Source: Antitrichia curtipendula (Eukaryota > Streptophyta > Bryopsida > Hypnales > Leucodontaceae). From it: 64,000 nucleotides of DNA. Positions 39,574 through 63,389 of this stretch are shown one piece after another. Each line of letters starts with the position of its first letter. Positions within the stretch are counted from its first letter, which is position 1. The stretch spans positions 62,001-126,000 of the forward strand of contig OX579642.1 of assembly GCA_951230915.1 (NCBI GenBank). Reading direction: 5' to 3'. The notes beneath the pieces were generated by a model. It made no database searches and was not told the origin of the DNA. It saw nothing but the letters and a program-made list of their open reading frames with translations. Both the position numbers and the translations under genes were made by a program.

Positions 39574-39599
39574 ATGCCCTATTTAACTACTTTTGGACT
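39574..39599 (+). repeat. left terminal inverted repeat of element G
   Basis: 26 bases starting ATGCCCTATTTAACTAC and ending TTTTGGACT. They match the right terminal repeat without mismatch and are preceded by the AAAG duplication. Confidence 0.95.
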
Positions 39600-39649
39600 G
39601 GGGGTAGTCCAGAATTAAGGAAGTGGCAAAATCCCCCGATGTTTTCCTC

Positions 39650-40935
39650 TATATCAGGAGATTTCCCCATGTATGATGGGGTTGCATACATCAAGTTTTG
39701 CAGTTGTTACTACTGCATGAACTGCTTTGTCTGTATAGAAATGACTCGAATTCTTCAGACATTGCTCGATAATTACTGTGCAAAAGTTTGCACTACTGGA
39801 TTGGGAGAAATCCGACCAAGGTATCCAATATTTGAGGATCCCATTAGCAGTAGAACGACGTCCCAAATAGTATCGAGAGATCTCCCGATGAAAAGTGCTT
39901 GAAGAAAATATAGCTCCCATCACCCATATGAATCCCTATCTCAACTCTTGTGGTACAATGCGAGTGCTATACTTACAGTCCTCCAAAACAGTATATGATT
40001 CACAAGAAGACATGATGTAAGAGATTGTCTCAAAGAGTAAGAGATGATTACATAATTATCAAATGAGGATTTCCTCTTAGGGAAAACGCTCGCAGTCATG
40101 ATTTCAACGTGAGATCCCCCGATAGAGTACTAACATCGTCAAGCAATGTAATCATCTATAACAAAGTAATGGTTTGTGATTAAATGCCAACACTCACCGT
40201 ATATTATTAACCACTCATTCACGCGGAGGTCCACGATTGCGTTCGTAGCTAGAATCCGTTTTGCAACAAATGTACATCATGGCTGACCTCCAGTGGTACA
40301 CCAAGAGATCCCCCGATGAAATTTGTAGGAAGGCAACTGGAGGAGTGTGTAAAGACTAAGACATTGCCAATCTGACTCTAGATGAATAATGGCAAGCATA
40401 TTGTTCCATCAGAAATAGTAACAGATTGTGTGAAAGGAACATGGAGTCTCTCTCACTACTAGAAATGGTCTCTACCTGGTTGCCTACTTCTTGAGACTAA
40501 AGATCAAGAAATCCATGAAAGCAGAATTCCCTCGTTCATTAAATGTGAGAAGAAATAAATTGCAGACATAGATTAATACTGAAGCACGCATAATCCAAAC
40601 ACTGCACTTTCAATCTGATACAAACATGAACCACATGCAATGCAACACATCAGAGAAAGCCGAAGCCACACTTCAGGTATAAGCAAAATTATCCTAAGTT
40701 GCATGCAGAGATTAAACCGCAGCATACCGAAATAGATGTTTTCATTATGCCGACATACGGTATTACATGTCACAGACAACAGCTGCAAGAAAATGGTGTC
40801 TACAAGCAGTCATACTCAAACACAGAAGTACAACTCTTGACTGCGCTAAGTGGTTGGAGATTTCATCAGGAGATCTCACGATGGCGGCATGGCCCGTAGA
40901 AAGGATCAGAAGATCTCCCGATGATCGGAAAGATC
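39650..40935. repeat. GAGATCTC-type palindromic motif cluster, left flank of G
   Basis: Copies near 39,654, 39,872, 40,108, 40,304, 40,864 (CATCAGGAGATCTCACGATG, a complete form) and 40,906. There is no gene here; the rest is nondescript noncoding DNA downstream of the DUF7869 gene. Confidence 0.85.
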
Positions 40936-41582
40936 CGAACAGGGGAGTCTGTCGTAGACCAAAATGTGAAGATTAGCCTAAATACGTAGAAAGATGGGGG
41001 AATGAATTAGTATTGGTACATTTTTTTGGGTTTGTAAAGGTGTAAACCAGGAATCTTATCAAGATTAACATTCCCGTTCAATAGGTATAGTAGTAGAGAG
41101 ATAATCATGTTAACAGGAAGTTAAGACTTCCTGTTTTTATCGGGAACCGGAACCGGAAGAGGATTTGGATCAATACCCGGGAATATCTCGAAATGAGGAG
41201 ATAGGATGCAGACACGTACCGGAAGAGGCTGCGGAATCTACCGGAAGCCAGTAGAGCATTTCTTGAATCCAACGGCTCTACCGGAAATTAGGTATGACCG
41301 TTCAACGGTCAGATCCTCCCAAGATTACGGCGGAAACGGGAAACCTAAACGATTAGGAACGAAGTAGAGGAAGATGCCCCAGGGGTTAGGACTTCCACTC
41401 TCCTTTCTCGTTCTGATGTTTTTAGCACCCCTCGAGCGCTTGGAGTTGTTTGGAATTGCCAAGGTGTGAGAGGAAAGCAAGTTCAGAGTTTCCGGATCCG
41501 GTAGAGAGGAAGGATCCAATCGCCTGTAGTTTCTGAGGGACTGTACGAGGTTTGTAGTGGGAGACAGATATCTGAGGGAAAG

Positions 41583-43494
41583 ATGGTGAAGGCGGAAGGC
41601 AGTGGTTCTGGAGCGCTGAAGATCAAGAACATCTTTCCAGCCATTCCAAAGGATGAGAGAGAGAGGAAACAGTTGGAGGAGGATCTCAGTCAAATCGGAG
41701 TAGCGGGGTTTCTTAGTCGCCCTTGGAGTTTGAAGAGTGAGGAGATGATCCAAGAGTTGCTGAGCGGATAGTCCAACAAGTGGGTGAAGACAAATCATGC
41801 TCTGCCCGGAAAGTGGACGATTGAGACGTGGAAGAAGGTGTATGACTTTCCGCGTCCGGGAGAAGGGATGGCTTCGCGGACGGACAAGTTCGCGGAAGGT
41901 AAATTTTCTAATCCTCCCCATGCTAAGGACGGCTACGCAGTAGCTGATTGTAAAATAGGGAGAGAAAGGAGGATGCTGGAGTTTGTAGTCCCGATTCTGT
42001 ATCCGGAGCGTCCAAACCGGATCACAGTCACTTGGGCTAATACAATCTTTGGAGCATTGAGTGGAGAGAGGAAAATCTTCTGGGCAGGAATAGTGAAAGA
42101 CCTGGTCGGGAAGATGGTCATCTCTTTAGGGAACACGAAGGCAACCCCAATTGGGCCTTTCCTCTTCTACTTGTATGATTACCTAGGTACACTGAGGAAT
42201 TCTGAGAGGACGGTTTACAAGGCAGCAGCAACCTTGGTAAAACTGAACATAATCCCACCCCGAGAGAATGAGGAAAGAGAGAAGAAGAGAGGACTGGATG
42301 AGGAATCCGGGAGGGGTTCATCCAAGAAGAAGAAAGGGTCTTCCGAACGGAAGATAGTGTCAGAGCGGATCCCAGCCTCTTTTAAGGAGAAAGGACCCCA
42401 GAGGGATAGAATGAACACCGGATTCAGAAGTCCAGAGAGAGGATCCACTGGGGAGGGTTATTTTGGATCTAGAGGTGATCCGGGAAGAGCTAGACACGGA
42501 GAGAGGCGCAGTGAAAAAGGTATGTGGACTGCTTGGTGGGATCAAGGTGTCTGAGCTAGTAGAGAAAGTAGAGGGTCTGATCCGGGATAGTGATGCCCGG
42601 AAGTGGGAAACTCAAGTGAAGGAGCTGACTGAGAGGAATGAGGATCTTCACCGGCAGTTAGAAAAGAGTTTGGAAAAGAGTAAGGAAGCGAGAGAACTGT
42701 CAGCTGAGTCTGATGAGACCCTAAAGAGGGTACGGAGTTTTGTATCCCATTCCGGGGATGTGTTAAACAAAGCTCGGCTTTATGATGAGGAAATCCACAA
42801 GGCTGGTACGGAAGCAGCAGCCAAGGCAGTCATGGTTTTGGCGGAGTACTTGGAGGCAGTCGAAAAGTTTATGTACGAGATTCGCGAAGCCCTCCAACAA
42901 GCCGGATACCTTCCGGGTTCAGAGAGGAAGACAAGGGTGGAAACGAGGAAGGAGACGACGCCAATACGGCCAATTCAGATCATGTCTCCTCCAAAGGAAA
43001 GAGAAGTGGAGAAGAAGACACCAGCGAAGGATTCCTCTAAGGCCAAGACAGAGGCGAAGGAAGGATCTGCACACGGATCCGGATTGAAGGAAGGCACCCG
43101 AAAGTCGGAATCCGACTTAGAAACACCGAAGGGTAAGGGTTCTAAACCCTCTTCTCATACCCCCATCACGATAAAGAGGAAGATTACGCCAAAGAGGGCG
43201 AGGGAGGTGTCTTCAGAGAGTCACCATTCGGAGGAAGATGAGACTCCAAGTAATTCCGAGAAAGAGGAAGGCCAGTCGCAATCCGATTCCGGATCAGAGT
43301 CTCATCCGGAATCCGGATCCGAAGAGGAATCCGAGCCATTACCAATCTCTCCAGCGAGTTTTAAGGGGAAGGCCCAGACGCCGACCAAGGGAAAAGCGAC
43401 AACTGCTGGAAAGGCGTCAGCAAGTAGAGTACAGCCGCCTAGGAAGGGATCCGCCAAGTATGAGGAACCTTCTCCTAAACGGCTTAGGAAGTAG
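41583..43494 (+). pseudogene. element B protein (homolog of element A protein), one nonsense codon and one frameshift
   Basis: ATG at 41,583. The conserved N-terminal region carries GFLSRPWSLKSEEMI, FVVPILYPERPN and TWANTIFGALSG. The frame meets TAG at 41,769-41,771, in a stretch where the element A protein stays open, but continues without change to about 42,420. Between about 42,410 and 42,460 coding shifts by one base into the frame that reads REELDTERGAVKKV and continues to TAG 43,494. The remainder is a charged coiled coil (TQVKELTERNEDLHRQLEKS), a long acidic Ser/Glu tract and a basic end (SPKRLRK). The order of regions is the same as in element A although sequence identity is low outside the N-terminus. 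Function is unknown. Confidence 0.75.
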
Positions 43495-44867
43495 ATAGGA
43501 AGCAGCTTCCGAAGTAGGAAGGAAGTTATTTAGGAAGGATTTTAGGAAGTTAAATGGAAACCAGAGTTAGAAGTAGGTAGAAAGCAACTCATGAGGTGCT
43601 TTCCAGGAGGATGCACCTGGACTTCCTCTTTTCCGGGAATTTCAGATCTGAGATCCACTTTTTGTGGAAAGGGGAGGATGATAGGAAAGTCAACGGTTAG
43701 TGGATAGGGAATGATGCGTGTCATTCTCTGATCTTGTTTTGGGATTTCTGGGGACCTTTAGGGTTTCTTTTCAGTTTGGTATTTAGGGGTTGGGAGTTAG
43801 TTCCAACTCCGGGCAGTTTCATAATCTTGTTTTTCATATTCTATCTTGCAAAGAGAGCTTGGATTTCAACTCCATTGAGTACTAGTCTGAAAAGTCTTGG
43901 TCTTGTGTGAGGGGTTAGGCGGTGCTTTGACCACGGCTAGTTCAAGTGGCTTGGTGGGGGAAACTTGAGAGGAGGAATTACCCCCGGATTTTGTCTGGAT
44001 CTGTTTTCAGGAGTATTAGGACTTGGTTGATAAATCTTTGTGTAGTAGGCGGGAATTTTAGATGTTGAAGTTTCTTGAAGGGTTTTCTGAGCAGGATAGC
44101 CATTCTTAGGTTAGGTGAATCTTCCGGGAGTGGAAGAGGTACGCTGGCTGACGTCTGAGAGGTTTTGCTGAATCCGGAAGAGAGAAACAGGAAGACAGTT
44201 GGGATCCCCTAGTTATCGAAGTACCAGGTCTGACTCTTGGGATCTTGTCCGGATAGGTTTGTCATTGTAGTAAGGTGGGGATTGTAGGGGTTTCCTGAGT
44301 GACCTGCTAGTCTGGAATAATCTCCCGGATCAGTTGTGAGGAAGAATTTGCATTCCGTTTTCTTGTGGTTTTATTGTTATTTCTCTTTTAGTGGCACTCC
44401 ATCTACTCTAAACACGAAGGAGGGTAGGATTTACGCATCCTTCCTTAAGTATAATTGCGGATCCCTCTGAACCAGAGGTTAAACTTCTACATTGGTTACT
44501 GGTTACTAGGTCTAGGATTCGGATTTGGAACAAGGTTTGGACACTCCTTCCGGTTCCGCATCCGCGTCCCGGGGAAATAAATGGTTACTATAGACAAAGA
44601 GAGGCACAGGATTATGACACTCCTCCATGTCTAGTGAAGTGGTATGAAACAGAAGATACAGTATTTTGGAGTACGGGTGTCAAAGAGGGTGTTTCCGGGT
44701 TTCCGTTCCGGATCCTCTTTGTCTTGGTTTGTTGTTCCGGATTCCATTCCGGTAATTTTGAGGAAACTACGAGTTAAAGTCTTTTGGGAATGATACACGG
44801 GTCATCTTGGGTGTTTTGTCGTTTAAAACACCTAAAGGTAGGATTTGTGCTTCCTTGTGCTACGACA
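43495..44867 (+). other. 3' noncoding part of element B
   Basis: No gene. Shares GTAGTAAGGTGG and GGTCATCTT blocks with the 3' part of element A. Confidence 0.6.
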
Positions 44868-44874
44868 GAGTCCA

Positions 44875-47800
44875 TCAACGGTCAACCTCGTTTGCCCGAT
44901 TCAAATTTACTAAGGCAGCCTCCCTACTCTTCTTTGGAATTGTCCATGACTTTGGATCTACTATCTTGGACCAGTTCGAATACACAATACAAGTAGCATC
45001 CACCCATTCCGGGGCCCTTCTCTCAACAACCCACTTACCCTCCCAGCAATTCCGGTACCTCAATTCCATGGTACTCTCCGAGTTATCCGGTCGCCAATAC
45101 TGTATCAAGAACTTCCCGTTATTTGCATCTCCATTGATTTTGCATACGGCAGATAGTGCTCTTCCTTGCCATACAGCACAGATTGCTGGGTTTTCGGGTC
45201 TCAGAAGCACCCATGACCCTAGGCGTATGTCAAGCCAGGGATTGAAGCTTTCCAGAGGCGCTTCATTTGCAGGGCCGCAGTATGGTTCGAGATCCTCCTC
45301 CTCCGGAATCACATCGAAGGGATTCCCAGTGAACCCCGCGAGAGGTCCTTCAGTGCGAGGCACCCTCCAATCGTGCTTCGGCCAGAAATCCTCCATTAAT
45401 TCAACAGCACATTCAGGTAATGGTTCCTTCAACTCGATCAGCACGCGCTTCCAATATTCCACGTATGGACCAAACGTCGTCGCAAATCTGTCGCATTTGG
45501 ACATTCCGTTTTGCCAATACTGAATGTACTTCTCTAGGCCTATTAGCATGAATCCCTTATTCACGGTTGCCTTTCGTGCCATTTCCTTAGCCTTCTCTTG
45601 ATTTCCCGTTGGTTTAGGAACCTCACTGCCCCACATTGGCTTGAATGGAACAGGCTTTGGAAACCCATGAGGGAGCATTGGCCGACCATTGCGGTCTCGC
45701 TTCCAAAGGCGGGTTGACGGCTTATCAGATGGTAGCCACTTCGAGTCCACTGCTGACTTCTTATATTTCATGACTTGGACTCCATCACTATCCACGTAGA
45801 ACTTGAAAAGATGCATCTCCCCTAGTCCAATTAGTCTAGCGGAGCCATTGCTCTGGAAACCCTTTATGAACGACTTGAAGTCCCCCACTTCCTGTATGAA
45901 CTCCGGCATAAATGACAGTTCCTAAGATTGCATGAACGCCTTCATGAGGTCCGCGACAACAAAAGTGTTTTTGCTCTTCAAGGCCTTCGAGAGATGGCTG
46001 AAATATGCATTGATGTCTTCATGAGTGTGTCCCACAAGCAGAAAACCAACTTGAATTTCTTTAAAGACATCTCGTGCAGTCAACAGGGACAAGAACGCCA
46101 TGAGGTACTGGTTCTTGTTATCCTTAGCAGAGTTGTCAAGCTGAAGATACAAATTTCGGGGAAGAGGAGTGGAGCTGACCCGAGCTCCTGGTTCAACAAG
46201 GGTTAAGCTGTCCAAACATCTAGACTTCCCCCTCAGAAGAGCCTCAAACATCGGATTAGCCGGCGGATACGGGAACAGGTCGCCTGTCTCTCGAATCGGT
46301 GGACCCTCCAACCGGCGCAACAGTCTGGCCAGCGACGAAATTGTGAAGTTGGAATCTCCTAGCCAGCAAGACGGAGCATAATGGGCGTAAGCCCCATCAG
46401 CATGACCATGGGCTACCATACCAGTAACGCTAAGTGGAAGTTGTCCCAACCCCGCCGTGGCCTTCGTGGTCACCCGCATTCTTAGTAAAGCCGTCTTGGC
46501 TGTATCCATCTTGTCGTGAATTATACACAATATCTCCTGAGGGTTTTGTTTGGATTCCTCACGCCAAGACGCATACAGTCGACGGCAAGAAGCTTGGTGA
46601 TTGAGATGTTCAGTGCGTTGCTTCATGAACTCCACATACTGAAGGCACCCCTTCGGTGATTTCAGAAGAAACTGCTGAAGCTGGTCGCATGTGCTACACT
46701 TTGCAAACGAACTTCCAACAGGCTTAATATAAACATTGTTGAAGTGCTCCTTCCTCAGTCTACTGATAGTGGACTGACTGACAGGAGGAAGTCCGTAGTC
46801 CGCATTGAGCTGCACAGGAAAGAGAACCGCACATTAGCCTGGGTACAACTGACAATAAAGAACTGCAAAGTTGAACACCCAACATCCAAGAGAACATCGT
46901 GAGATCACACAATGATCACAGCCCATGGTAGGAAATCACAATCAGCCACGCATTGAGCAATGAGTAAGACAAATACCTCGTTGGCATCTGCCTGGACGCG
47001 TTTCCAGTTTCGTCCCGCAGGCAAGAACTTCAGCGTGTCCACTCGCCCGTTCCCGATTCCACGCATTTGATGGGGCATTTGGTCCGCATTCTCGTCTATG
47101 ATGGATTTCATAGTTCCAATGACCTGGACAGTTCGAATCCGTGGGCGCTTAACGCCCTTGTTTCCGTGCGTTCCCGATACAGTGCCCTCGTTATACTTCT
47201 CTATGTAACTATGGTATGTCGACTTCGGGATACCGTGAATTATGTACCATGCCGTGGCACAAACCTCCATCCCCATTAATGTGACGAATTTTTTCTTCCG
47301 ATTCCCGTCAAGCTCATGAAGTTGTCCTCCGACAGAGATGCCATACTCGCGGCGGTCCTCAAATGCCTTCAAGTAGTATTTCTGCCTCACAAGGAGTGTG
47401 TGGAACTAGTTGAAGTGCTACAACATTAACGATTGCAGCATTTCGACAAGGTGACCTCCCGAATCTCATCGTTAGTAGTTTTCCGATCGTACAGTGAATC
47501 CGTCACATCCAAACATGGCTTACGAACTACGAATCGATACGGAGCTTTCATTCTGCCGCCGAGATAAGCCAGAGGGTCGTCCAAGTCCGGAACTACTGCA
47601 AAATGATGCACGGTCTCCTCCAAGGACCGACCATTCGGGAACCAGCACTCAGACAGTGGCCACCGAGCGTGAGACATAACATCCTCTTCATTCCCCACAA
47701 AAACCTCGCGGATTGTCACACCCACGTGGTCCTCACCAAGTGTTTCATCCTGAAAATGATCATCCGGCCTCCAACTGAATATTCGACCCAACGACAATAC

Positions 47801-48259
47801 GACACCGCTCGAGTCTTTTCGATGCACATCTAGACTCCACCAAGCTCCCTGTTGAATATACGGACGTGCATCCATCAGGGGATCTCCTGATGACCTGACG
47901 ACGTCGGCGGCTCTCCACAGAACTATCCGTTCTTGAGCGTCCCCCAAAAATCTCACCCCTATCTGAACGGGTGCGCACCTTAAACCTTGAAATTCGGGTT
48001 TGATAGACTGCGCCCAAACTAAAATGTAAGTCCACGGCTCCAACAGGATGGGCACACCAAGCCACTAACCCTCTGGACGAACCTCCTTTACCATCCCTGC
48101 TCCAACTTCACCGAAGCCATAAACAAACAGCCTAACCCAATTACCATTGGCGAATGGTTCAGGTGCACCACTGGAGGCATGCGATTCACCATGCATGCCT
48201 GGTCCTTCAAAATGAGGAATTATCGCACCAGCATTCGAATGACGCGTTGAGACCATCAT
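44875..48259 (-). CDS. DUF7869-type transposase/integrase-like protein of element G
   Basis: Three exons, all phase 0: 48,259-47,456, 47,381-46,977 and 46,809-44,875, about 1,047 codons. Donors GGGAG|GTCACC and GAG|GTATTTG, acceptors GAGGCAG and CCTGTGCAG. In-frame TAG occurs at 48,065-48,067 (EG-stop-WLG) and 45,922-45,924 (QS-stop-ELS). The middle exon has a winged or homeodomain-like start (CATAWYIIHGIPKSTYHSYI). The third has CSTCDQL, then IIHDKMD (about 46,500-46,520), LQLDNSAKDNKN (about 46,110-46,145) and VGHTHEDIN (about 46,010-46,036). This spacing of acidic residues matches the RNase-H-like core of DUF7869 proteins, suggesting a DDE/DDD transposase. It is the best candidate for mobilising G. 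Two nonsense codons mean this copy may be dead. Confidence 0.75.
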
Positions 48260-49165
48260 GAACGGTGAACTTCTTGAAAAAGGGAAAATTGGTGGAGCAC
48301 AATTATCTGCGAATAGGATGAAGGCTAGACAGAGTTAGGCAGGGCAGGGATAGAATTCATAGCACTTGCCCAGTACAGGATACGACATCTGCCCAAACAT
48401 TTTGAATCATGTGAAAGCAGATATGCTAATCAAGGCGCAAAACATATGGAAACCATCTCATTATAGTCAATGTCATGCAATGCAACATCACCTTGTGATC
48501 AGAAAATGAATGGTCATTATCAACCATCTGTTTTCCTCATCAGGAGATCTCACGATGTATGTATTAAGAGAACTAGGGATGGTTCCTTTTGTAACCAAGC
48601 GATATTGTCGCTTGCATTATTTGGAATCGCGCTAAGCATTACACGTACAGGATTCCAAACTAGGCACCATTCGATGCCCCTAACATGGATGTAGACTACC
48701 ATCCCCGGAAAATGGTATCATGTAACTTCATAATACGACTGACACGAGATCCTCTGCCGAAGCTATCAAGTCATCCATGGATAAGACGATAGAGAAACCT
48801 CAGGATTCATCTATCGTGCGATCCCACGATTCCCCATTTCTCAAAATACTTGGTGAAAACTATAAGTTGCAGCCCAAGATTAACTATCGTGAGATCCCCT
48901 GATCCAACTCTGAACCAAAAGCTCCGACTGCCAAATGCCGTATTGTAGACAACGTGAGATCCCACGATACCTCCATGAAAACAGAGGACACAATAGGCTG
49001 CACCACAAGTTAATCTATGTAGAGGTCTCCTGTTCCAAATCTGAAGGAAAGCCCCAGAACTCCTGTCGTGGGATCCCATGATGTAGACATCGCAAGATCC
49101 TGCAATAACTACACGTAATAGGGATTGTCGAACAGCCTAGCAAACTATCGTGGGATCACACGATA
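46905..49165. repeat. GAGATCTC-type motif copies around the DUF7869 gene
   Basis: Copies near 46,896, 47,877, 48,540, 48,810, 48,888, 48,952, 49,064 and 49,146. The one at 47,877 lies inside exon 1 and encodes RSSGDPLMDA; the 46,896 copy is in the second intron. The rest form a cluster in the 5' flank of the gene (48.5-49.2 kb), where no coding sequence is seen. Confidence 0.8.
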
Positions 49166-49245
49166 GTCATTCTGTACATTCAAATATATGTATACGTATG
49201 CCGTGGATACAAGACATCATATACATACAACATTGTCGTCTCCAT
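48260..49245. other. 5' flank of DUF7869 gene
   Basis: Noncoding; holds six motif copies. A promoter is expected on the minus strand but no clear TATA box was recognised. Confidence 0.5.
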
Positions 49246-49503
49246 ACTACATGATCGTTGTCTCCACGTACACCCAGACCTCTGTTCCATCCTTCTCAGG
49301 AGCTGAATCTTGATCTAATCCGGCTGCAGTTGAGAACAATGGACAAACTAAATGCAACCTCTGCTCTTCCCGGATCTTATCCCTCTCTCTCTCTCTCTCC
49401 GCAGATGCCTGTTTCTCATCTAAGGAACAGCTGGGTCGTCTAGAGCGAAGCGAAATCATCGAAGCAATCATGAGCAATGAAATTGGAAGTCTTGGTAGCA
49501 TAC

Positions 49504-50085
49504 CTTGCAACGACTGGATCAGTTGAGAGCCTTCTGTGCCAGCAACAAGAGGAATGGCACTAGCAAGCAGCACGACTTGCTCACTCCAAAGCCTCCACAG
49601 CTTAATCAAGTGCAGAAAAGAGAAAGCTTCAGGTTCCTCAAAGCTTATGACTGAACTGGGTTGGAATTCTCGAACTCCAAATTCCCGCCTTGACATTTTG
49701 AAATGGAGGCGCGTTCCTTCATTTCGGATGTTGGATGCGTTCTTGAATGTCGCGTCGCATTCAACAAGGCGCTGGATAACGTGCTGCCGTTTCCCGCTTA
49801 TGTTGACCGATTTTTCCATATCCGCGTGGCCCTGACAACATGAAGGGAGGGCGTGCGTCTCTTGATTTCCTGCCAGAAAATTTAGAATTCGAATCTTGAC
49901 CGGTCTTTCAAATCCTCACTGACATGTGGAATTTCGTTGCATTCAAAGATGGTATCGTTGCAAGGGACTCTGAGGGTCAATGATACTTTCAGCAAAGCGA
50001 ACCTAGCTTTGAACACTGTCAGTTTCTCAGTGAGCCAAGGAATTCCGAATTCATATTCAACGCTTTGCCATTTGCAGATCAATTT
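49504..50085 (-). CDS. unassigned exon(s) of element G
   Basis: The minus-strand coding-like stretch ends at a good donor (TTGCAAG|GTATGC, 49,503). The final part reads KRQHVIQRLVECDATF, RLHFKMSRREFGVREF and EAFSFLHLIKLWRLWSEQ. An upstream stretch in another frame reads PWLTEKLTVFKARFALL and VPCNDTIFECNEIPHV. Either a short intron or a frameshift joins them. It could be the 5' part of the DUF7869 transcript or a separate small gene. I do not recognise it. Confidence 0.4.
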
Positions 50086-50504: not shown

Positions 50505-50680
50505 TCTTAGGGTTTAGGGTTTCTTTAGGGTTTTAGGGTTTTAGGATTTTAGGGTTTTAGGGTTTAGGGTTTAGGGGGGGAGGGTTTTCAGGGTTTTAGG
50601 GTTATTTAGGGTTCAAGGGCTTTAGGGCTTTAGGGCTTAGGGTTTAGGGTTTAGATTAAAGTGAATTTAAGGGTTTAGGG
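50505..50680 (+). repeat. degenerate interstitial telomere-type (TTTAGGG) repeats
   Basis: Many TTTAGGG, TTTTAGGG and GGGTTTAGGG words with imperfect spacing between 50,505 and 50,680. This is the plant/green-algal telomere word. It is imperfect and internal, so it is an interstitial remnant rather than a chromosome end. Confidence 0.8.
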
Positions 50681-53375: not shown

Positions 53376-53383
53376 TATAAAAA
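53376..53383 (+). promoter_or_regulatory. TATA box candidate of the element G large gene
   Basis: TATAAAAA about 300 bases upstream of the ATG at 53,686, between two decayed motif halves (CTCATGATATG, TCTCATGATG). No other TATA-like word is as well placed. Confidence 0.5.
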
Positions 53384-53685
53384 TCTCATGATGTGGATTT
53401 TAATAAAGGGCGTTCCTTGATGAATTTTGGTCATGATGACCCTGTACATCCGCCGCCGGTCTTCCGCCTCGCCCTGTCTGCTCGCGCCACGTGGCCTTTG
53501 TCGCCTCCGGATGGTTTTCTCTTTCCCCCAATGAGAGTTTTGCTGCCTCCCGTTGTTTTCTCTCCCGATACTCTTCCTTTCCCCAACTTCATGCTGTTTT
53601 CTCTCCCGATGTTCCAGTCTTCGATTCTGATCCTTTGCGTTTTGTGCCACTGGTCTTCCGGAGTGGACAACTTCCCTTGTCATCA

Positions 53686-53852
53686 ATGAGTGGAACTCGG
53701 CGTTGTTGGCGGCGAGGCGCGTCCGACATTGGAGGATTGCTGGAGCTGCAGGACATTGGAACTACTCCGGGAGCGCGTCCGACCTTGGAGGAGTTGGAGC
53801 AAATAGTACTTGCTTTGCGACGTGCAGCGGGCTTGAAAAAGTTGTTGCGCAG
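53686..53852 (+). CDS. exon 1 of the element G large gene
   Basis: ATG at 53,686 opens MSGTRRCWRRGASDIGGLLE and continues to a short helix (TLEELEQIVLALRRAAGLKK) before a perfect donor CGCAG|GTGAGT. This start is chosen because the upstream frame has no better ATG near the TATA candidate. Confidence 0.6.
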
Positions 53853-56800
53853 GTGAGTCAATGTCTCCTTTTGAGTGTCCCCACTTGCTCGCTTTTGGAA
53901 ATGCATCACAGGATTTTTGTTTTGTGCGTTGAGAACAATTGTGCTGTTAGCTTATGCTATCTTATTGGTAGCTTTGACATTGTGGACATTGGACGGCATG
54001 TAGATGTTATCAGTAGTTTCATTGAGTTTCGGAGAAATGCTACTCGCTTCCGTTCAAATTTGTCCCACCTCGTTCTTGTGCTCACTGGCGTGCAAGTTTA
54101 AGCTGTATCCATTGCGGTTCTTTGAGTTTGATACATAGTTCAAATTTATGGCTTCCTGATGTTGATCTTTGCCGTCATGTATCAGGAGTTCAGGCTGCGA
54201 TTCGTACATTGAAGGTTGCTTTGTGGCCTTGACCACGTTGAAGACGAAGCATGGTAGGACCGTCATCACAACGCAGCGGAGGCCTTCCAATTTGGAATGA
54301 CAGGTAAGTTCCTCTGAACCGTATGTCGTGAGATCTCACCATACTACCATTACAGAGTTTTAGACAAGAACAGCAGAGGTTTTAGAATTAGCAGATTGAA
54401 GAATGCACGATAATTACAGGTCTATAGTTCAGAACCCACGGTTATAAGGTTGTTAAAACCCTATAACCGCGCATCGTGGCATGGCATCAACCAGAGAAAT
54501 GCATAAGGGGTTAGCCCTATCAGGAGATCCCACGATGAAGTATCCATTAGAGTAGTCCGACTGGGAAATTTGGGACAGTTAATCTGCATTGGATGTCCTG
54601 TAAATGATTGTATTCACATTCAAATCATCGTGAGATCCCCTGATAACCAAAAGACATCAAAGAAATGAGGGAAATAAGATACTCAATCAGTTGAAAAAGC
54701 AACCGCATAACCGTAAAATCTCACTCCTGAGACTGAAGCTGTAGAATAAAAGAGAGATTACCGTGAGATCTCACGATAACGGATCATGAGTGGTATCCTA
54801 GAACACCAAAGCTTATTGTAGTCTGCCCAACCAGAGCTACTCCCTTTATAGTGATTGCATCGTGTGATCCCCTGATAAGCAAGATAGACCAACAGATCAT
54901 GAATAATAAGTAGTTCAGTCTAAACCCTAAACCCGAATGTATGAGTGAGGACACATCGTGAGATCTTACGATGACGACCAGTAATAGTCTAGCATCGTGA
55001 GATCCCCTGATGATGTTCACGTAGGAACTCTCCAGTTCCATTCGAAGCCGCGGTGTCGTAATAATCTGTCATAGAAGCCCTACTGTATAAGCAGACATCG
55101 TGTGATCTCACGATGATTCCAGATGTGGACCTGCTATGATGACACTCTAATCTAACACTTCGTATGATATGGAATGCTGCAGTGGTGCACAGATGCAGGA
55201 CATTCCTGAGGACTTGAGCCCAAGGAAGCTTGCAGCCTTCGTCGACTGGTGGATACATTCCTTCGAGTACATCGGAGAGCACAATCCGGCGGCAGTTTTC
55301 CGATGCAACCTCAGCGTCACGGAGTGGTGGCTGGAGTTCGTGATAGAGGAAGGCAAGGCTCTCATCGTCCCGATGCTGAGACATCTCGACAGGGTGCACA
55401 AACAAGCTGGGCTAAACGTCATGGAGATGCAGGGCCTTGATGGAGATATAGTTCTTGTCGTTGTGGAGGAGAAGATACCAAAGAGTGACCAGTTCATCAC
55501 CTACGGCTTAATCCTGGACTACGCTAAGCTCAACATGACGAAGTGCAAGTCCATGACAGACAGATCCTTGCTGTTCTGTAGAAGCACCTCATCACCCCAT
55601 TGGAGTGTGGCTGAAATGAAATCTCAGTGGGATTTGATTGACGAGGATCGGATCGACATTGGAGCTCCTGAGCGTCCAGTTGTTCACAGTACTCCTACCA
55701 AACCATCTCCGAAGAAGAAGGCCAAGAAGCGCAAGTCAGCTGCCGGAGCTCCAGGTGACAAAGAGGTGGCAGAAGAAGCCACATCATCTGGGAAAAAGCG
55801 AAAGGTAGGGACCGAGTTATCTATTCACGTGTGCGTGAATATGGAAGAGAGCGAAATCAAGAAGCTGACAAGGGAGGACATGACTAAGATGAAGAAGTTG
55901 TATGACACCCATTTCACGGACTTGTACCGATGGGGGAAGAAACCATTCTGCGACGTGGCCGGAGATCCCATCCGCGTACACTACGATTGCCTGCACGAGG
56001 CTCTCCCCGGAATTCTCGTGTACAGAGGGATAGAGCAAAGCCGCCTTGAAGGGATCACGAACAAGGCCAGAATCGCACCTGACTTCGACTCAGATAATAG
56101 AGTAATAACGGTGCTCCCTGTCCAGCGCGGTCCTTATGGGGACAAGAAGAAGACCGACTTCTACAAAGAGGAGCCCGACAATGCGATTTTCAGCACAAAG
56201 ACTCAGTACTTCATTATAGGGGGACAACACACTGTGAGGGCGTACAAGAATCTGGTGAAAGACGGCGAGATAGCAGAGGCGGACAGGAAGTTAGCGACGA
56301 CATTCAACATAGTACCCATCTTCGCCAAGAAGGAGAACTTCGATAACGTGTTGTTGCTTTCACGGGCCCTCAACCAAAATCTTGCTGGCGAACAGAAAGA
56401 GCAGTGCTTCACGAAGCAACTAATCAATGCCAGGATCAAATGGAGAGACATGGGCAGCCCGCAACCAGCACTCTTCGGCAGGCACCACGACAAAAAGTAC
56501 CTGGTATGAGTGATGTCAAAATCCCTCATTTGGTCAGTCCACTGCTAAATGCAGTCTTCATTCTCAATATCGTGGGATCCCCTGATGCTAATGTAGCTCT
56601 CAATCTAGGATCATGAGTTTGCTTACTCTAGAATGAAATGTCCACTTCGAGTGTCGAAATACACGGTGACTTCCTCCAAAATAGTATATCATCGTGAGAT
56701 CCCTTGATGCTTCAATGCTGTACATGGTCCTGTACTAATAGTCCCGTTGTGTTTCTGGTCTTGCGCAGGCATTTCATCCGTCCCTTGTAACAATCTTCAC

Positions 56801-59800
56801 GGGTCAGAAGCCGAAAGACAACAAGGAGCTGCGGATTCCACTTGCCTTTCTCGAGGACGACAAGGATGTTGACAGATGGATTAAAATCGAGGAGAAGTAC
56901 ATGACAGGGTTGCTACCGGACACCGCAGGGTCAGTCAATGAGACCGGATCTCTGAGGCGCAAGCCCCTTACTGCAAACGATTTCAAGACATTGTATGGGC
57001 TTCGAGCGGAAGACATCAACTACCTTGTGACTCTCGTGGAAGAGAAAAAAATTACCGTGAAGAGCGGCAAGGTCAAGACCCCGAAACCCCTCACGACTCT
57101 TGCTTCGGCAGGCGCCAAGGAGCGCCTCATTCAGGGGATGAAGAACGAGTTGATGCTTCACTACAGGAAGCATCCCCTACCCAGCAAGAAGCCGGAGTAC
57201 GAACCATACTCCCCAACGGAGTGGGACGACTTCGCGAAGGAGAAGGGAATAGATCGCGAGCAAGTAGAGCTCTGGGTGAACAAAGCCATGGATTCGCATT
57301 CCGGATCGAAGTGGCTGCTGGATCGCACAGCGGGGCTTAACAAGACGATCGACCCGACTGACTGTCCGCAATTTGTGCGGGACATGTGGGAGGCGTACTT
57401 TAGTTCGACGGCGACCATTGGAGTGCAGGAGGCGCTTGAGAAGGGGTACTCCGAGAACTACATGTGCAGAGTCTTGGACGACCACTCCGAGAATCTCAGC
57501 AGTGTTCTGAGGAACCCCGACGTCGTTTCTTGGCGGGATGGAAGTAAGCCGCACATGTACTTCTGGTTTCTCTTTGAGCAGACGGATTTGGGATCACGGG
57601 CAAAACTTCTGGAGGATCGAAGACTGAGACTATTCTTTGACGCTTTGGAGTGCTACGACCCATTCACGAAGCTTATCACAGCCCGGTCTGCCGCCGTACT
57701 CCTTACTGATGCAGAGGGATACCACATGCTGTGTTTTCATTTGGAGAAGAGAAGATGTGAAAACGGCAACACTAGAGTGTGGGACCTGCACCTCGTCAAT
57801 TACATGACGGCACCAGCGGACGGATTCCCGGAGGCTGTCGCCGGGGAGGGCTTCAACGTCTTCGTTGTGTTCTGCTTCGGGTACAACAAGGAATATGGTT
57901 CGCAATTGTCTTTCAAAACCTTCTTCCCGGGAGAATCTAAAAAGATGAAGCAAGTGTATAGGTCCAAAGAGCATCGGGATGACTTCACATATTGGAGACA
58001 GCAGAATGTACCGTACTTGAAGATTTCGACGGCCATGATCATCTTCTTCGAGCACGTATATGGCGACCTTATCCTCGTCAACATTAACGGTGGACCAGAG
58101 TTCACATTCCTAGGAATGCTACGCAACTGATTGTCCCTCTCCTTTTCATCGCCTTCCAATATTATGTTGATCCCATAAACTAGCAGATACTGACGTACTC
58201 TTCTTTCCCATCTGCTGTAGAGTGCCAAAGTGAAAGTCCTCGAAGTTGTGAAATCCGCGGAGGCTGCATATGAAAGTCAAGCCTTTGCGAGACAAATGTG
58301 GGACCACTTCCACTTGAAGCCGAAGCCACTGTCTGAGCACCAAGTACTGAACGACGAAGAGCAGGACTCGGATGAGGAGGAAGAAGCGTACAAGGAATTG
58401 GACAATTCCGGTGAACGAGAACATGAAGGAGGAACCGGATTATTGCAGGGGAACAATAAGGTCAGTGTACACTTCTTGTTGAGCCATCGTGAGATCTCCG
58501 GATGCCTGGCAGCGCACATCAATGATATACGATATCCCAGTGGCTTACTGATTTCCAGTGTCGTTGGCATGTTCCGACGCAGGAGGACTCTTCGCGAAGA
58601 AGGGGGCAGACAGGTGACTTCGAGACTCCGCCCTTGGTCAACAAGATAGAAAAGGAAGTTCGTCCAGCGTGGGAGAGCATGAGGGAAAGGCATGGAGAGG
58701 GAGTTCGGGATTCACCAGCTGGTTCAGGTGCTGCTCGTCACTATAGTGAGTTGGAGGACGACGCTGCGGACGCGGCGCTTACTGACAAGAGAAAACTCCG
58801 TAAGAAAGCCGTCAAGAACTCTTCGAAGTCAGTCAGAAGTCCAGAGCAGTCGACGCAGGAGAAGCGGAAAAAAACAGAAATCAAAAAGAAGCTTTCTGAT
58901 GTTCTGGAGAAGGTGAAGGACAAGGTAATCGTTAAGAAGAAGAGCAAGAGCACCGCAGTGCTAGCGGCGGAGAAGTTCCTGGAGGATGGAATCACCTCGT
59001 CACCTAACGTGGAATGATTGAGAAGGACCGGTTTGTTCGTCGCTCAGATCCTGAGATGGTGGCAACCGGAAATCAACAGGGCAAGGGCTCCGGCGACGAT
59101 GCAGTGGATTCGCCGTCACCGGAAGCGTCGAAAGCCACGAAGACACTTGTTTCCTGCGCCTCTCGACCGTCACATTTAGAGTCCACCGACGATACACTTT
59201 CGGGTGCTGAGCACCCTCAGATGTCTGATGCGGAGTAGGGAAATGGAGAGGGTTCGATCGTTCAGTCACCTGTGAAGGAGGCAAGACGACCGCAGGAGGA
59301 AGTTGCCCAGCCGTCATCGGGGGATCTCACGATGGCACAGGAGGACCCGGTCGTCGTTGGGCAAGACGGTCAGTCACCTAGCCCTGCACTTGGCTGCACG
59401 CTGGAGCTTTCCGGCATACATGAAGAGGTGAATCAGTTGAGGACTAGAGAGTCTAAGCTGCTATCGAGTCCTGCAAGTGAGACGCGGATCCCAGGGAAGG
59501 AGGAATCAGAACTTGCAACCGGCACTTTGGTATCGGGTGAGATGCTAAAGGAGACACCGGTTATCTCCCATGACTATGTTACTTCTAGATGCGAGGGGAA
59601 GGGTATAGAGACGGTGGAGGAGAACCTTCCTTCATCGGGGGATCCCACGATAGTGCCTTCGAAAAAGCAAGTGCAGGTGGACATGAGTGTTGACGTTCGA
59701 AGGGATGCTATGACGGATTTGGACTTATTTAGTCCCGTACCAGGTAGGGACTCGTCAAGGCTTGAGGAGGCATCTGTAGTAAACATCACCCTCGAGGCAG

Positions 59801-60880
59801 CAGATGAGGTTGCTCAAGAAAGCGATACAGGTGTGGACACGGGGTTTTTGGATGCCTTGCCCTTAGATGGGGCAGAGGTTCTGAAGGTCAGCAATTTTGA
59901 TGTCTTCAAGGAGTTATGTCATTTTTCGAGTCTAAATTCATACCCCAATCCACGACTAGATAATCCGAAGTCAAAGCATCTGGAAGCCGTAAGGCAAGCA
60001 AATCGTTTCATATACGAAGAGGTGTTTAACTGGAATCTTGAACAGGGGGCGCCGTCACAAGATGCTTTGAAAGTACCGGAGAGCGATGCGCCGAAGCAGA
60101 GGGGAAATGAGACGGAAGACGTCACAGGTGCTTGAGTGCTCTACTATTTCATTGTATCATGTTTTGTTTTAAAGCTATGTCTCCTGAATTGACTCTAACT
60201 ACATGTTTCTTTTGTCTTTTGCAGAGCTTGGAATGCCTTCCTTGCCTGTGGCGAGTTCATCGAGAGAGGTAGTTTTCAGACGGTACTCTATGGTCCTTGA
60301 CCTCAATGGGCTTCTTCTTCACAGATCCTTTGATGATCGTAATCGACGCAAGAATGTACCCCGTCCGGGTGTTGTAGAGTTCCTTGACTGGTTGCGTAGA
60401 CATGCAGCCGTTGCGTTCTGGAGCAGCGCTTTGAGCCGGAATGTGAGGTCTCTACTGGATACCCTTCTGCGGCCCACCTCATTTAAAGCAGCGGACGTCA
60501 TTGTTCTCTCGCAGGAGGATTGCAGGGTGTCGTCCTTTAGAGACCGCAACAATCCGGATAAGTCCTACTTCCTGAAGGATCTGACCACCTTCGCCACAAT
60601 CGCGAATTTGAATTCCTTAGACAATGTTCTTCTAATTGATGACAGTCCGATTAAGAACCTCCTAAATGATCCATGCACCGCTGTTCATCCGAAAACATGG
60701 GCCGGTGATCTGAGGGACTACTTCTTGGAGGGGCAGTTGAAGCCATGGCTTCAGGATCTGTTTCAGTCAAACGAGAGTGTCGTCTCCTACGTCTTGAACC
60801 ATCCACTTCCGGGTGGTCAGAGGTCGGAGATTAAGTTTTCCAGGCTGGCGAAGAGTATTCTGGGCGGAATTCCTAAATAG
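53686..60880 (+). CDS. element G large gene: ParB-like + amino-methyltransferase-like + acidic linker + FCP1-like HAD, eight exons
   Basis: Proposed exons: 53,686-53,852, 54,186-54,303, 55,199-56,503, 56,769-about 58,127, 58,221-58,460, 58,583-about 59,013, 59,014-60,127 and 60,225-60,880. Phases agree at every canonical junction (2 then 1 at exons 1/2; 1 then 2 at exons 7/8; the rest 0). Order of parts matches element P: N-terminal region, IIGGQHTVRA ParB-like loop, degenerate methyltransferase-like fold, long acidic linker, FCP1-like domain. Lesions or oddities: TGA at 54,298, no GT donor at the end of exon 4, frame change through overlapping ATGA near 59,014, TAG at 59,236. Role is inferred to be regulatory (self-recognition or anti-silencing) rather than transposition. 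Confidence 0.7.
54186..54303 (+). CDS. exon 2 of the element G large gene
   Basis: Acceptor TGTATCAG, donor TGACAG|GTAAGT. In the frame set by exon 1 it reads SSGCDSYIEGCFVALTTLKT and ends RRPSNLE-stop-Q; the TGA at 54,298-54,300 may be a decayed CGA. If the stop is real, the protein would have to start downstream. Confidence 0.5.
54320..55120. repeat. cluster of eight GAGATCTC-type motifs in intron 2 of the element G large gene
   Basis: Copies near 54,326, 54,518, 54,626, 54,760, 54,858, 54,955, 54,990 and 55,098, all variants of CATCGTGAGATCYCMTGATG. This is one of the densest clusters in the element and sits in an intron close to the promoter. Confidence 0.88.
55199..56503 (+). CDS. exon 3: N-terminal region and ParB/DGQHR-like domain (element G)
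   Basis: 435 codons, acceptor AGATGCAG, donor CTG|GTATGAG. The first ~170 residues are unknown (DWWIHSFEYIGEHNPAA). A nuclear-signal-like PKKKAKKRKSAAG and KKRK follow. Then comes a conserved region with ITVLPVQRGPYG and, at 56,212-56,243, YFIIGGQHTVRAYKNLV, the ParB-type G-x-H loop. The end LLSRALNQNLAGEQKEQCF is matched in relic Q (HLSKVLNQNNAGE). In ParB and DGQHR proteins this loop carries the key Gly and Arg. Here Arg is Thr, as in Q. Confidence 0.68.
56769..58127 (+). CDS. exon 4: degenerate methyltransferase-like domain (element G)
   Basis: Acceptor TTGCGCAG, then AFHPSLVTIFTGQ. The reading frame is open to TGA at 58,128-58,130. Conserved with relic Q: FLEDDKDVDRWI, YGLRAEDINYL, MKNELMLHYRKHPLP, KPHMYFWFLFEQ, ARSAAVLLTDAEGYH. 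The end GDLILVNINGGPEFTFLGML aligns in position with the AdoMet-binding motif I of element P (ENTIGIYTGSKFMIAAK). No (D/N)PP(Y/W) motif is visible, so it is even less likely to be catalytic than P. The expected donor after CGCAAC has no GT, so splicing to exon 5 is uncertain. Confidence 0.55.
58221..59013 (+). CDS. exons 5-6: end of methyltransferase-like fold and charged linker (element G)
   Basis: Exon 5 (58,221-58,460; acceptor TGCTGTAG, donor AATAAG|GTCAGT) reads SAKVKVLEVVKSAEAAYESQ, comparable to the helix after motif I and matched in relic Q (KVLEFVFDTEAQ), then acidic EEQDSDEEEEAY. A motif copy lies in the intron at 58,487. Exon 6 starts at 58,583 and is Lys/Glu-rich with a helical stretch (EIKKKLSDVLEKVKDKVIVK). 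It ends SSPNVE at TGA 59,015, overlapping the ATG of the next frame by ATGA. Confidence 0.55.
59014..60127 (+). CDS. exon 7: acidic linker with motif-encoded peptides (element G)
   Basis: An open frame of about 371 codons broken only by TAG at 59,236. Acidic and Ser-rich, probably disordered. Two copies of the element motif are translated in frame: PSSGDLTMAQ (59,315-59,340) and PSSGDPTIVP (59,630-59,656). The end (FKELCHFSSLNSYPNPRLDN, then KHLEAVRQANRFIYEEVFNW) looks globular. Donor GTCACAG|GTGCTTG joins in phase to the FCP1-like exon. Confidence 0.6.
60225..60880 (+). CDS. exon 8: FCP1-like HAD phosphatase domain (element G)
   Basis: Acceptor CTTTTGCAG; 218 codons to TAG at 60,878. Motif I is YSMVLDLNGLLLHRSF (about 60,287-60,325). 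The motif-II-like region is AVAFWSSALSRNV. Motif III is VLLIDDSPIKNLLN (about 60,625-60,667). It is diverged from the element P domain but collinear with it. FCP1/NIF-type HAD enzymes act on phosphoserine, classically on the RNA polymerase II C-terminal domain; a role in controlling transcription of the element is an inference. The nucleophile Asp is present. Confidence 0.78.
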
Positions 60881-62163
60881 GGCTGTTTTTTCATACTCGG
60901 TAGGCGTTATCAGGAGATCTCACGATGATATCTGGGACTTCTTTATAAGTAGAGATAGTAGGTGTCACAATATTGGTAGAACAGACTATAATCATAGTAA
61001 ATGTATCTTCTGTAACTGACTTCGACGCTTATGTTCATAACAGAAAAACTGGTTGACCTTATAAATTTACTTGTAATCTTCATAGTAATGCAATCATCAT
61101 GATATCTCACGATGCTTTCTTTTACTTCAGTGTTGTTGTAGTCGAATACCAAGCTATTCTTGTTCTCTCTTTAAAGTACTCTATTTTCCGTCCCTTCTGT
61201 GAATTACTGTTTTCAAATGTCTGTAATCGATATGATGGGAATTTCCAGCGAATTTGCTAATGTGGTTGTTTATTTCTTAGTATGGCCGTCTGTTTTCCAT
61301 GATCCTGTAATATGTAAATTATAATCCTTCGGGCAGACTCAGTTCGTTAAATTTGCGTAGTTTTAGGATTTTCTCGGAAGAGATGTAGATGTCTGATTTG
61401 TCTCACAAATGCTTTCCGTTTTATGAGTCCTTCATTATGTTTTTGTCAGATACTTCATTTACGCTCTCGGTATTCTATTACCCCTCTACCTTCTTTGGAA
61501 TAATTTTAATCGTATTTGAATTGTGGTAAGTTGGGACCCCTAGCCTTCCCACTGTTGACTCTTCATCAGGAGATCTCCCGTTACATGATTCCTTATACAT
61601 GTCATATCTTTATTCTGAGTGCGTATGGTATCATTGTTTTGTTTCTTATTTCTTTTGCTTAGAATTCGTTCTTACAATATATATTTTTTTTTCTTACCAA
61701 CTTATTCGTCCATCAGTAATATGGACACTGGTTCAGTTCGCTTCTGCATAAACTCTTCGGATGTTTTTTTGTAATAAGCTCGTCCATTACCTCATCCGGA
61801 GATCTCCTGATGTTCGATAATTTTGCTTTTCGGGTACGGGTGTATTACTCTTTTACAGTCTGCATCATGGGATTTCACGATACGAATCTTCATGGTTTAC
61901 CTCGGTCCGAATTCTTTTCCTCTAAGTCTACCACCACATGTGGAGGTAGTTTTTTAGTTCATTTTAGTTTATGAATGATCTACATTCTCCATAAGCAGTT
62001 CACTTAAGAATGGAGCCCTACTTCTCTCGATCATCTCAGAATTACTTTGAACCGATGGGGGCATAATTACACAAGTCTCACATTTTTCCCAAAGCTTCTG
62101 GGGGTCGTCGGAAGTACGAATTGTTTTCTGCGTTCTGCTTTATAATTTTATTAGTAAATCAGA
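60881..62163. repeat. noncoding right flank of G with motif copies
   Basis: Copies of the GAGATCTC-type motif near 60,908, 61,093, 61,566, 61,793 and 61,863. No gene; the sequence is otherwise AT-rich and T-rich. Confidence 0.75.
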
Positions 62164-62763
62164 ATGCTTGATTACTGCATTTCATGGAACACTGATCCCT
62201 TGTTCGGGTATGCTACAGACAGTTTCATAGGATATATTCCATCAGGAGATCTCTCGATAATTAAGGTCACATTTCCTTTCATTATAGGTATTGTGTCCTT
62301 GACTGTGGGCGGGTGTTGTTCTCTGCAGGCGGTGGTGATCCTGGTACTCACGGGTGCTCTCTGCAATGGCGATTCTCCTTTGGATCTCCAGATTAATGTG
62401 AAGACATTATCACGCTTCGAGGCGTTCATTAGTCTTCTGCTGACAACGACTTCCGTTTTCCTCTGGTTGAATATGCATTGGTCGTCATTGAAAGAGATTC
62501 TTGCACGTTTTCTTCCACAAAAACTTATTTCGAGGTTATGGCGGATAACTTGTGGATGTGATTTACATTGCAAGTTGCAACTGCATCATCTTCATCGTCG
62601 ACATGTATTGAAGACCCTCGTTAGTGATCCTCATGCCAAGGAGGTACTTAGGAATCGAACGGTTCATTTCCTTGATATAGATCCTATGAACATGCGGATG
62701 CATTTAATCCCCCCGGTCATACATGTTAGAGATGACCCCAATTACTTATACAGTAGACTCTGA
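62164..62763 (+). CDS. small ORF of element G, unknown
   Basis: 199 codons from ATG 62,164 to TGA. Two hydrophobic stretches (VTFPFIIGIVSLTVGG; VVILVLTGALC) come first, then a basic His-rich part (CKLQLHHLHRRHVLKTLV). The motif at 62,240 encodes PSGDLSI. A good acceptor (TTCTCTGCAG at about 62,330) suggests that real coding could begin there, with the hydrophobic start being intron. No family is recognised. Confidence 0.4.
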   Translation: MLDYCISWNTDPLFGYATDSFIGYIPSGDLSIIKVTFPFIIGIVSLTVGGCCSLQAVVILVLTGALCNGDSPLDLQINVKTLSRFEAFISLLLTTTSVFLWLNMHWSSLKEILARFLPQKLISRLWRITCGCDLHCKLQLHHLHRRHVLKTLVSDPHAKEVLRNRTVHFLDIDPMNMRMHLIPPVIHVRDDPNYLYSRL

Positions 62764-63363
62764 AATGCAAGCTAATTTCATATTCATTTCAGAGGCGCAC
62801 GCCTAAGTATGCTTTGGTGTATCTTTACGAATGAATTGTGGTGATTTCACCTTACTTCACTATACAATTGTCTCTATTTTGCAGAAATCTCTTTATTTGC
62901 ATGCATTGAACATGTCATCCTATATGCCTGTATAATGCTATGGGAATTTCATCTGGAGATCTCTTGATCTCCAATTCCCAGTTTCAGTGATGGATTTCAT
63001 ACCTCCATTTTGTTGTGGATCTCAATGCTTCTAACGAAATAAACATGTAGACATGTTAGCATTTGAATTCACAATATTTACACATGGTCTGCAATTTCCA
63101 GAGGTAAATTTGTGGACAAGTATTTCAATCTCTACATCATGAAATCCCTAGATGATGGATTTGTTTCAATGAATAAAACAACAAAAAACGCACCCTAAAC
63201 GCTTACAATGCCAAAGCGCGTTCTGTTATATGGCTTTTAATATACATATGTGCTCAATTACCTATTATCCTAGCTACTTTCAACATCATGACGGTGATTT
63301 TTTCCATAATGTCGGTTGTAATCATCATGGGATATCTTCCAAAAAGTCCGAAATTGGGCCCAA
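62764..63363. other. right subterminal region of G
   Basis: Noncoding; motif copies near 62,949 and 63,134 are the last before the terminal repeat. Confidence 0.6.
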
Positions 63364-63389
63364 AGTCCAAAAGTAGTTAAATAGGGCAT
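63364..63389 (-). repeat. right terminal inverted repeat of element G
   Basis: 26 bases ending GTTAAATAGGGCAT, the perfect complement of the left end, followed by AAAG at 63,390-63,393. Confidence 0.95.

Follow-up and report, generated by a model that had tools for sequence, protein, structure and literature searches.

A giant DNA transposon family with a predicted DDE transposase, a divergent ParB-like/FCP1 gene and arrays of a candidate recognition palindrome

Introduction

Giant transposons that combine a ParB-like domain with a methyltransferase have been published for a brown alga and, in the accessible part of the same article, are cited for green and red algae (PMC12477816). The example described from Ectocarpus, Sola1-1_Ec32, is 21.5 kb long and bears an accessory gene with a ParB-like domain that is transcribed opposite to the transposase; its authors suggest that proteins of this kind attach to the transposon that encodes them and modify it (PMC12477816). 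A Sola1 element of Physcomitrella is entered in a review table, in the excerpt available. In a 2025 survey of the ParB-CTPase fold, sulfiredoxin is given as the commonest eukaryotic form, and the main text of that survey holds no word starting with "transpos" (PMC12704722). Here, a 64,000-nucleotide stretch of the Antitrichia curtipendula genome (contig OX579642.1, positions 62,001-126,000; hereafter the window, in whose numbering all positions are given) was analysed, in which a giant DNA transposon with a DUF7869 gene and a divergent ParB-like/FCP1 gene lies at 39,574-63,389. The element had been proposed in an earlier, sequence-only reading of the window.

This element is considered likely to be a DNA transposon of the cut-and-paste type, about 20 kb long, with a DUF7869 transposase and a ParB-like/FCP1 protein that recognises the element's own palindromes for self-recognition and regulation. 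The kind of element is already known, because the algal elements described above have been published. What is new relative to the literature searched is the set of candidate binding sites, with their conservation, and the FCP1 partner: among the titles and abstracts of the matches listed (with subscription papers and preprints mostly outside the search), no ParB-like plant transposon with palindromes was found, and PMC12477816 was the nearest.

Results

The element at 39,574-63,389 (23,816 bp) is the window copy of a giant DNA transposon, family 1, recognised by its ends, its target duplication, its paired copies and its empty sites. Its termini read ATGCCC, and the left (39,574-39,599, plus strand) and right (63,364-63,389, minus strand) 26-bp terminal inverted repeats, called from the alignment of the ends, a genome count and shuffles, are identical at 26/26 bp. 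Perfect inverted ends had been reported by the sequence-only reading, and they held up: the two ends are the sole matches in the window at up to three mismatches, and 100 shuffles gave none. The flanking 4-bp target duplication AAAG, also part of that reading, is seen directly at 39,570-39,573 on the left and 63,390-63,393 on the right. At up to one mismatch the 26-bp end occurs 599 times in the 400-Mb assembly (reversed control, 0).

For the end searches, the left 127 bp and the right 160 bp were used as queries, with the best 40 of 153 and the best 40 of 98 candidates being taken, respectively. At least 32 end pairs were found in the genome, 32 of the 40 listed left ends being matched by a right end of the same orientation at a distance of 18.2-43.3 kb; 14 of the 32 pairs span 19.7-19.9 kb and 21 span 18.2-20.6 kb. 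In view of its 599 occurrences, the end is therefore common to more elements than these 32 pairs. Sequence was retrieved for 30 pairs beyond the window copy, one of the 32 being omitted; 10 pairs were taken in two pieces of 10 kb each (with about 0.5 kb of mid-element missing) and 20 more as both ends. A 4-bp target duplication was present in 28 of the 31 copies (window copy included, and c13 and c22 scored by reading the ends), the remainder having three of four bases equal (c1 and c26) or two of four (c30). Every one of the 28 duplications is different, with no fixed pattern. The check that had been proposed with the sequence-only reading, a search for other inverted pairs flanked by 4-bp duplications, was thus answered positively, and 39,574-63,389 is confirmed as a genuine transposon insertion.

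Empty sites were sought with the flanks of the insertion, 39,414-39,573 and 63,394-63,553, joined into a 320-bp query. Both flanks belong to a high-copy repeat (2,911 first-look candidates), and all 42 listed genome rows (40 scored and 2 of low identity) cross the junction, the best of them matching 320 on 320 bp at 99%. The sequence-only reading had placed an ungapped empty site in the window itself. That partner proved to be an inverted arm of the repeat, or an inverted copy of it, lying next to the site (identity 84% across 94 bp and 77% across 101 bp), with small compensating gaps at the junction in a gapped alignment, and is for both reasons weak on its own; what stands is the empty site as such, since the joined flanks run uninterrupted elsewhere.

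Within the element lies a nested 3.9-kb insertion (40,950-44,867, with a 5-bp overlap at its ends) that is foreign to it, being absent from all 10 full copies compared. Without it the element proper measures about 19.9 kb, so that the earlier description of a 23.8-kb transposon was right in naming a real giant transposon and too large in counting the nested insertion. Two frames of the nested insertion were scanned with Pfam and gave no domain above cut-off. The open reading frames at 41,328-43,495 were rejected as genes of the element, as they lie inside this insertion.

The two genes of the element are divergent, with the DUF7869 gene on the minus strand and the ParB-like/FCP1 gene on the plus strand. 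The former has at least two exons. The exon with the DUF7869 domain (44,878-46,833, minus strand; Pfam PF25273) was assigned from Pfam, other copies, the fold of a homologue and motifs; an upstream exon (46,908-48,064, minus strand), broken here into 46,908-47,405 and 47,429-48,064, is one 476-residue frame in 2 of 10 other copies. Candidate catalytic acids are found in HDKMD (46,518-46,504), LQLDN (46,146-46,132) and GHTHEDI (46,032-46,012), and nearly invariant residues fall within LQLDN and GHTH.DID. A structure model of the homologue P0023, which shares 73% identity with the L015 copy over the 652-residue exon, was built from 54 sequences with a predicted local distance difference test score (pLDDT) of 86.9. 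When this model was compared with VIA-align, 34 of the 35 top rows were retroviral integrases, Mos1, Metnase/SETMAR mariner domains, Sleeping Beauty, IstA, TnsB, other CRISPR-associated transposon (CAST) transpososome chains, Tn5, ISCth4 or Hermes, the sole exception being an Argonaute. The DUF7869 protein is accordingly predicted by modelling to have a DDE/RNase H fold, and would be a DDE transposase with putative catalytic activity. A PDB sequence-profile search with the DUF7869 family returned no match. The domain is very abundant in the genome, the best 150 of 1,609 candidates all scoring above the Pfam cut-off, and homologues are named from Ceratodon, Physcomitrium, Riccia and Chara; a literature search for DUF7869, with most subscription papers and preprints outside its scope, returned no papers. 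An in-frame TAG at 45,922-45,924 of the window copy was considered for a special role, and this idea was dropped because none of 10 other copies compared has a stop there.

The plus-strand gene opens with a ParB-like exon; a second conserved exon and further coding stretches follow, and an FCP1/NIF-like exon closes it. The ParB-like exon (55,151-56,506, plus strand) contains the motifs IIGGQHTVRAY (56,213-56,245) and RALNQNLAGEQ (56,363-56,395), and in structure comparison its model has a ParB-CTPase-like fold. The second exon (56,742-58,127, plus strand) encodes a domain of unknown kind that also follows the ParB-like exon in locus L071; only 2 relatives of it were found. The further coding stretches (58,221-60,132, plus strand, limits approximate) run from 58,221 to about 58,470 and from 58,526 to 60,132, the latter being a 536-residue frame in 3 of 10 other copies. 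In the FCP1/NIF-like exon (60,188-60,877, plus strand; Pfam PF03031, E = 1.5e-15) the DxDx motif reads DLNG. The sequence-only reading had described a ParB/methyltransferase/FCP1-like gene; its first and last parts are supported by structure comparison and Pfam, respectively, and the methyltransferase part was not detected when a four-sequence alignment of the second exon was searched against PDB and Pfam.

This gene arrangement recurs in the genome. A search with the ParB-like protein gave 95 rows, of which 93 were used (two fragments being dropped), so that there are at least 93 among the matches listed, 57 of them at 75% identity or more and 36 at 48-60%. Among the same listed matches, an FCP1 exon follows the ParB-like exon on the same strand within 15 kb in 78 of 93 cases, and a divergent ParB-like match lies within 40 kb of 43 of the 67 scored DUF7869 matches; the orientation controls for these gene-partner counts gave 1, 0, 0 and 2. 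Degenerate TTTAGGG repeats, presumably of the plant telomere type, were also observed inside the element at 50,507-50,654.

An 18-bp palindrome, ATCRKGRGATCYCMYGAT, has 34 sites in the element at up to two mismatches, one in the remaining 40.2 kb of the window and none in the nested insertion. The sites lie upstream of the transposase and ParB-like genes, in introns and near both ends, with only 3 of 34 within predicted coding sequence (exon limits being approximate). A left subterminal cluster of 6 sites (39,653-40,922) is followed by 8 sites in the intron, coding and upstream region of the transposase gene (46,896-49,164) and by a tight array of 8 sites within 0.8 kb just upstream of the ParB-like gene (54,325-55,114). 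Two sites occupy the first intron of the latter gene (56,569-56,708), three lie at 58,486-59,651 (one in a presumed intron and two in the 536-residue coding stretch), and the right subterminal region holds 8 (60,909-63,153), the last with three mismatches. The genome has 80 occurrences of one exact version of the palindrome and none of its reversed control; a ParB-like, FCP1 or DUF7869 match lies no more than 12 kb from 77 of these 80.

The same palindrome was found in other families. DNA at the ParB-like gene was read in five loci representing four groups, which are treated as families on the basis of identity and frame length. In each of these four other families, whose protein identity is about 50-60%, the palindrome forms arrays upstream of the ParB-like gene, with 11, 8, 9, 8 and 6 sites per locus at up to two mismatches versus shuffle means of 0-0.03; in L071, the 11 sites include 3 at the exon end or past it. 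The centre of the palindrome varies by family, reading for example GTTCCC or GATATC, and the spacing of the arrays is 54 bp in L073 and 72-75 bp in L074. In at least four cases an identical 26-bp right end was present about 2 kb past an FCP1 exon of 49-51% identity, and at least one diverged family therefore shares this right end.

Family 1 is an abundant and fairly young transposon family. The right parts of 11 copies diverge by 1.8-2.8%, and C-to-T or G-to-A changes make up 696 of the 851 private substitutions, with C-to-T rates per copy of 3.7% at CG, 3.3% at CHG and 0.9% at CHH sites. This pattern fits the mark that would be expected of plant CG and CHG methylation.

A second, diverged ParB-like/FCP1 gene is located at 27,795-33,845 on the minus strand. 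Its FCP1-like exon (27,795-28,667; Pfam E = 1.5e-13) shows 33% identity over 147 residues, and its ParB-like exon (32,337-33,845), which contains FYIINGQHSITA, was aligned to the ParB-like profile by hhalign with a probability of 81.6 and E = 1.1e-5; between the exon that comes next and the second family-1 exon, BLASTP showed no similarity. Upstream of this gene, at 33,864-34,749, is an array of a different palindrome, TTATCCTCG-N3-CGAGGATAA, spaced at multiples of 21 bp. At up to four mismatches this palindrome has 20 sites between 26 and 35 kb and none elsewhere in the window, and genome-wide its exact form is found at 311 places and its reversed control at none. On contig C1, where sites are listed to 54.06 Mb, 6 of 8 related ParB-like matches have it within 1 kb upstream, the other two being the 48% and 40% identical matches; C1 has 50 exact sites, and many of them are away from these 8 genes. 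In a comparison of 58 of 150 DUF7869 rows with 59 of 89 ParB-like rows, two second-type ParB-like genes had a divergent DUF7869 gene 12 kb away (one of them with another DUF7869 match 15 kb away on the other side) and a third had a convergent DUF7869 gene at 16 kb.

The second gene probably belongs to another giant element, into which the family-1 copy inserted. This element would occupy 26,000-39,573 of the window and sequence beyond 63,389, with the first element apparently inside it. When 19 rows of the flank repeat were compared with the same 59 of 89 rows for the second ParB-like gene, the repeat lay 5.3-6.4 kb upstream of a second-type gene in 6 rows and farther off (11.5-24.4 kb) in 3; in the other 10 no such gene was found within 40 kb among the 59 gene rows, and for one of the ten (C5, 28.59 Mb) an unused gene row, C5:28597131, is about 5 kb away. 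As the corresponding distance in the window is 5.6 kb, similar to that seen elsewhere, the family-1 element most likely jumped into another giant element.

Two further features of the window were observed: a tandem array at 1-3,250, with a spacing of 109-110 bp and a second, longer periodicity near 1,093 bp, and an open reading frame with DUF659 (22,994-23,689, minus strand; E = 3.7e-14), which we take to be a domain of hAT-type transposases. Elsewhere in the assembly, contig C303 carries a RuBisCO large-subunit gene whose best PDB matches are, by their entry names, plant-like.

Discussion

The favoured explanation is that of a cut-and-paste element with two functions. The DUF7869 DDE transposase would act on the 26-bp ends with 4-bp staggered cuts, and the ParB-like/FCP1 protein would recognise the palindromes upstream of the genes, in the introns and subterminally, as ParB does parS. 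Such putative binding might mark the element's own copies, regulate both divergent genes, perhaps by relieving silencing, and help to bring the distant ends together; protein and palindrome seem to change together between families. A stronger form of this proposal, held tentatively and judged close to evenly balanced, is a working eukaryotic ParB-parS-like system, in which a ParB-fold with an FCP1-like module loads on co-evolving, element-specific palindromes; each family would thereby have an address of its own, through which it is regulated, evades silencing and brings ends 20 kb apart into synapsis.

Several observations weigh against this explanation. For the ParB-like exon, the fold comparison gave middling Z scores on a model with a predicted template modelling score (pTM) of 0.46, Foldseek used alone was not significant (best E 0.095), a Pfam scan of the gene showed no ParB domain, a PDB sequence-profile search with the family gave no match, and no DNA-binding domain was identified; the order of the exons is what suggests a single ParB-like/FCP1 transcript or protein. 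For the transposase, Foldseek alone likewise gave no significant match to the P0023 model, Tn5 transposase being the best at E 0.053; of the candidate acids, the first (in HDKMD) falls in a column that is not nearly invariant, and either E or D can occupy the third position. Among the matches listed, the expected partner was missing for 15 of 93 ParB-like and 24 of 67 DUF7869 matches. At least one of the frames examined is damaged in all 10 full copies and in the window copy; single frames are still intact in several copies. The motif was derived from the window element itself, so that independent tests of it come from the other loci only, and among these L071 and L072 are copies of the same family. 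Finally, decay near the palindromes is not lower than elsewhere (0.0353 vs 0.0348 per CG/CHG site-copy), so that no lasting local protection from methylation is seen.

That the whole structure is an assembly artefact or a chance inverted repeat has a negligible probability, being refuted by the end pairs, the 28 different target duplications, the 599 end matches and the empty sites. It was also considered that the transposase, or some host factor, binds the palindromes, as with the subterminal repeats of CACTA elements, and that the ParB-like protein has another job. The clusters of 6 and 8 sites near the two ends would suit this explanation; however, the densest family-1 cluster lies upstream of the ParB-like gene rather than at an end, and a deeply diverged ParB-like protein goes with a different palindrome (in loci read around that gene), which makes this explanation unlikely. 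A special case of the favoured explanation is anti-silencing, whereby the ParB-like/FCP1 protein would bind noncoding arrays and remove or block DNA methylation over the whole element, in the manner of VANC on VANDAL elements. The position of the arrays upstream of genes and in introns, their regular spacing (54, 72-75 and multiples of 21 bp), the family-specific change of the palindrome and the C-to-T decay at CG and CHG sites, which fits methylation pressure, all favour it, and the targets of VANC are, in the accessible parts of the articles, often tandem repeats that vary between related elements (PMC5735166, PMC10398659). With the equal decay near the palindromes set against these points, anti-silencing is regarded as possible, the balance tilting somewhat against it.

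Plasmid partition loci resemble the combination seen here of a ParB-like gene with an upstream palindrome array, and the protein and its arrays might thus maintain an excised or replicating form of the element. This is very unlikely, as the copies seen are chromosomal insertions and no ParA or replication protein was found in the element frames scanned with Pfam, which were a part of all frames. Still less probable is an endogenous large DNA virus: the size and the bacterial-type gene could be so explained, whereas viral contigs hold no confirmed ParB-like relative and no close DUF7869 relative, and no viral Pfam domain scored above cut-off in the frames scanned.

If the favoured explanation is correct, this locus bears on a question raised by the algal elements, for whose accessory ParB-like genes no targets are reported in the accessible part of the article (PMC12477816). 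Here likely targets are visible, as arrays in five families and, next to a sixth gene that is deeply diverged, as an array of another palindrome, and the function of ParB-like proteins thereby becomes directly testable. Should the pairing be true, it would provide a natural set of diverged protein-site pairs for a bacterial fold in plant nuclei, and the arrays may show how giant elements control themselves.

Compared with known transposons, the element differs from several plant and eukaryotic groups. CACTA/En-Spm elements are large plant DNA transposons with subterminal repeats, CACTA/G termini and a 3-bp duplication; the element is like them in size and subterminal repeats, whereas the termini here are ATGCCC and the duplication is 4 bp, which also separates the element from KDZ, with its 8-bp duplication. 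Polinton/Maverick elements carry protein-primed polymerase, integrase and capsid genes, none of which was found in the element frames scanned with Pfam (damaged frames, and a part of all frames). With bacterial ParB-parS the element shares a ParB-CTPase-like fold and perfect or near-perfect palindromes near the gene, and differs in its many sites per element, an FCP1-like exon in line and the lack of ParA in the frames scanned. The VANDAL/VANC system of Arabidopsis, as far as the accessible parts of its descriptions go, is similar in that an element-encoded protein acts on short, often tandem-repeated noncoding motifs in its own element, with diverging targets (PMC5735166, PMC10398659); compared by description, the candidate binder here differs in its ParB-like fold and 18-bp palindrome.

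The sequence-only reading had held that the cargo matches no nameable superfamily, and this was too strong. A 4-bp target duplication is characteristic of Sola1 and was found in 28 of 31 copies, and a DDE transposase is indicated at the level of predicted fold, in the homologue P0023. Because the 4-bp duplications are combined with a ParB-like accessory gene opposite the transposase, the element points, by description, to giant Sola1-type elements. Set beside the accessible description of Sola1-1_Ec32, it is alike in its giant size and in this opposed ParB-like accessory gene; in the alga the partner domain is a DNA methyltransferase, the host is a brown alga and binding sites are not reported, whereas here the partner is FCP1-like with no methyltransferase detected, the genome is land-plant-like and palindromes accompany the gene.

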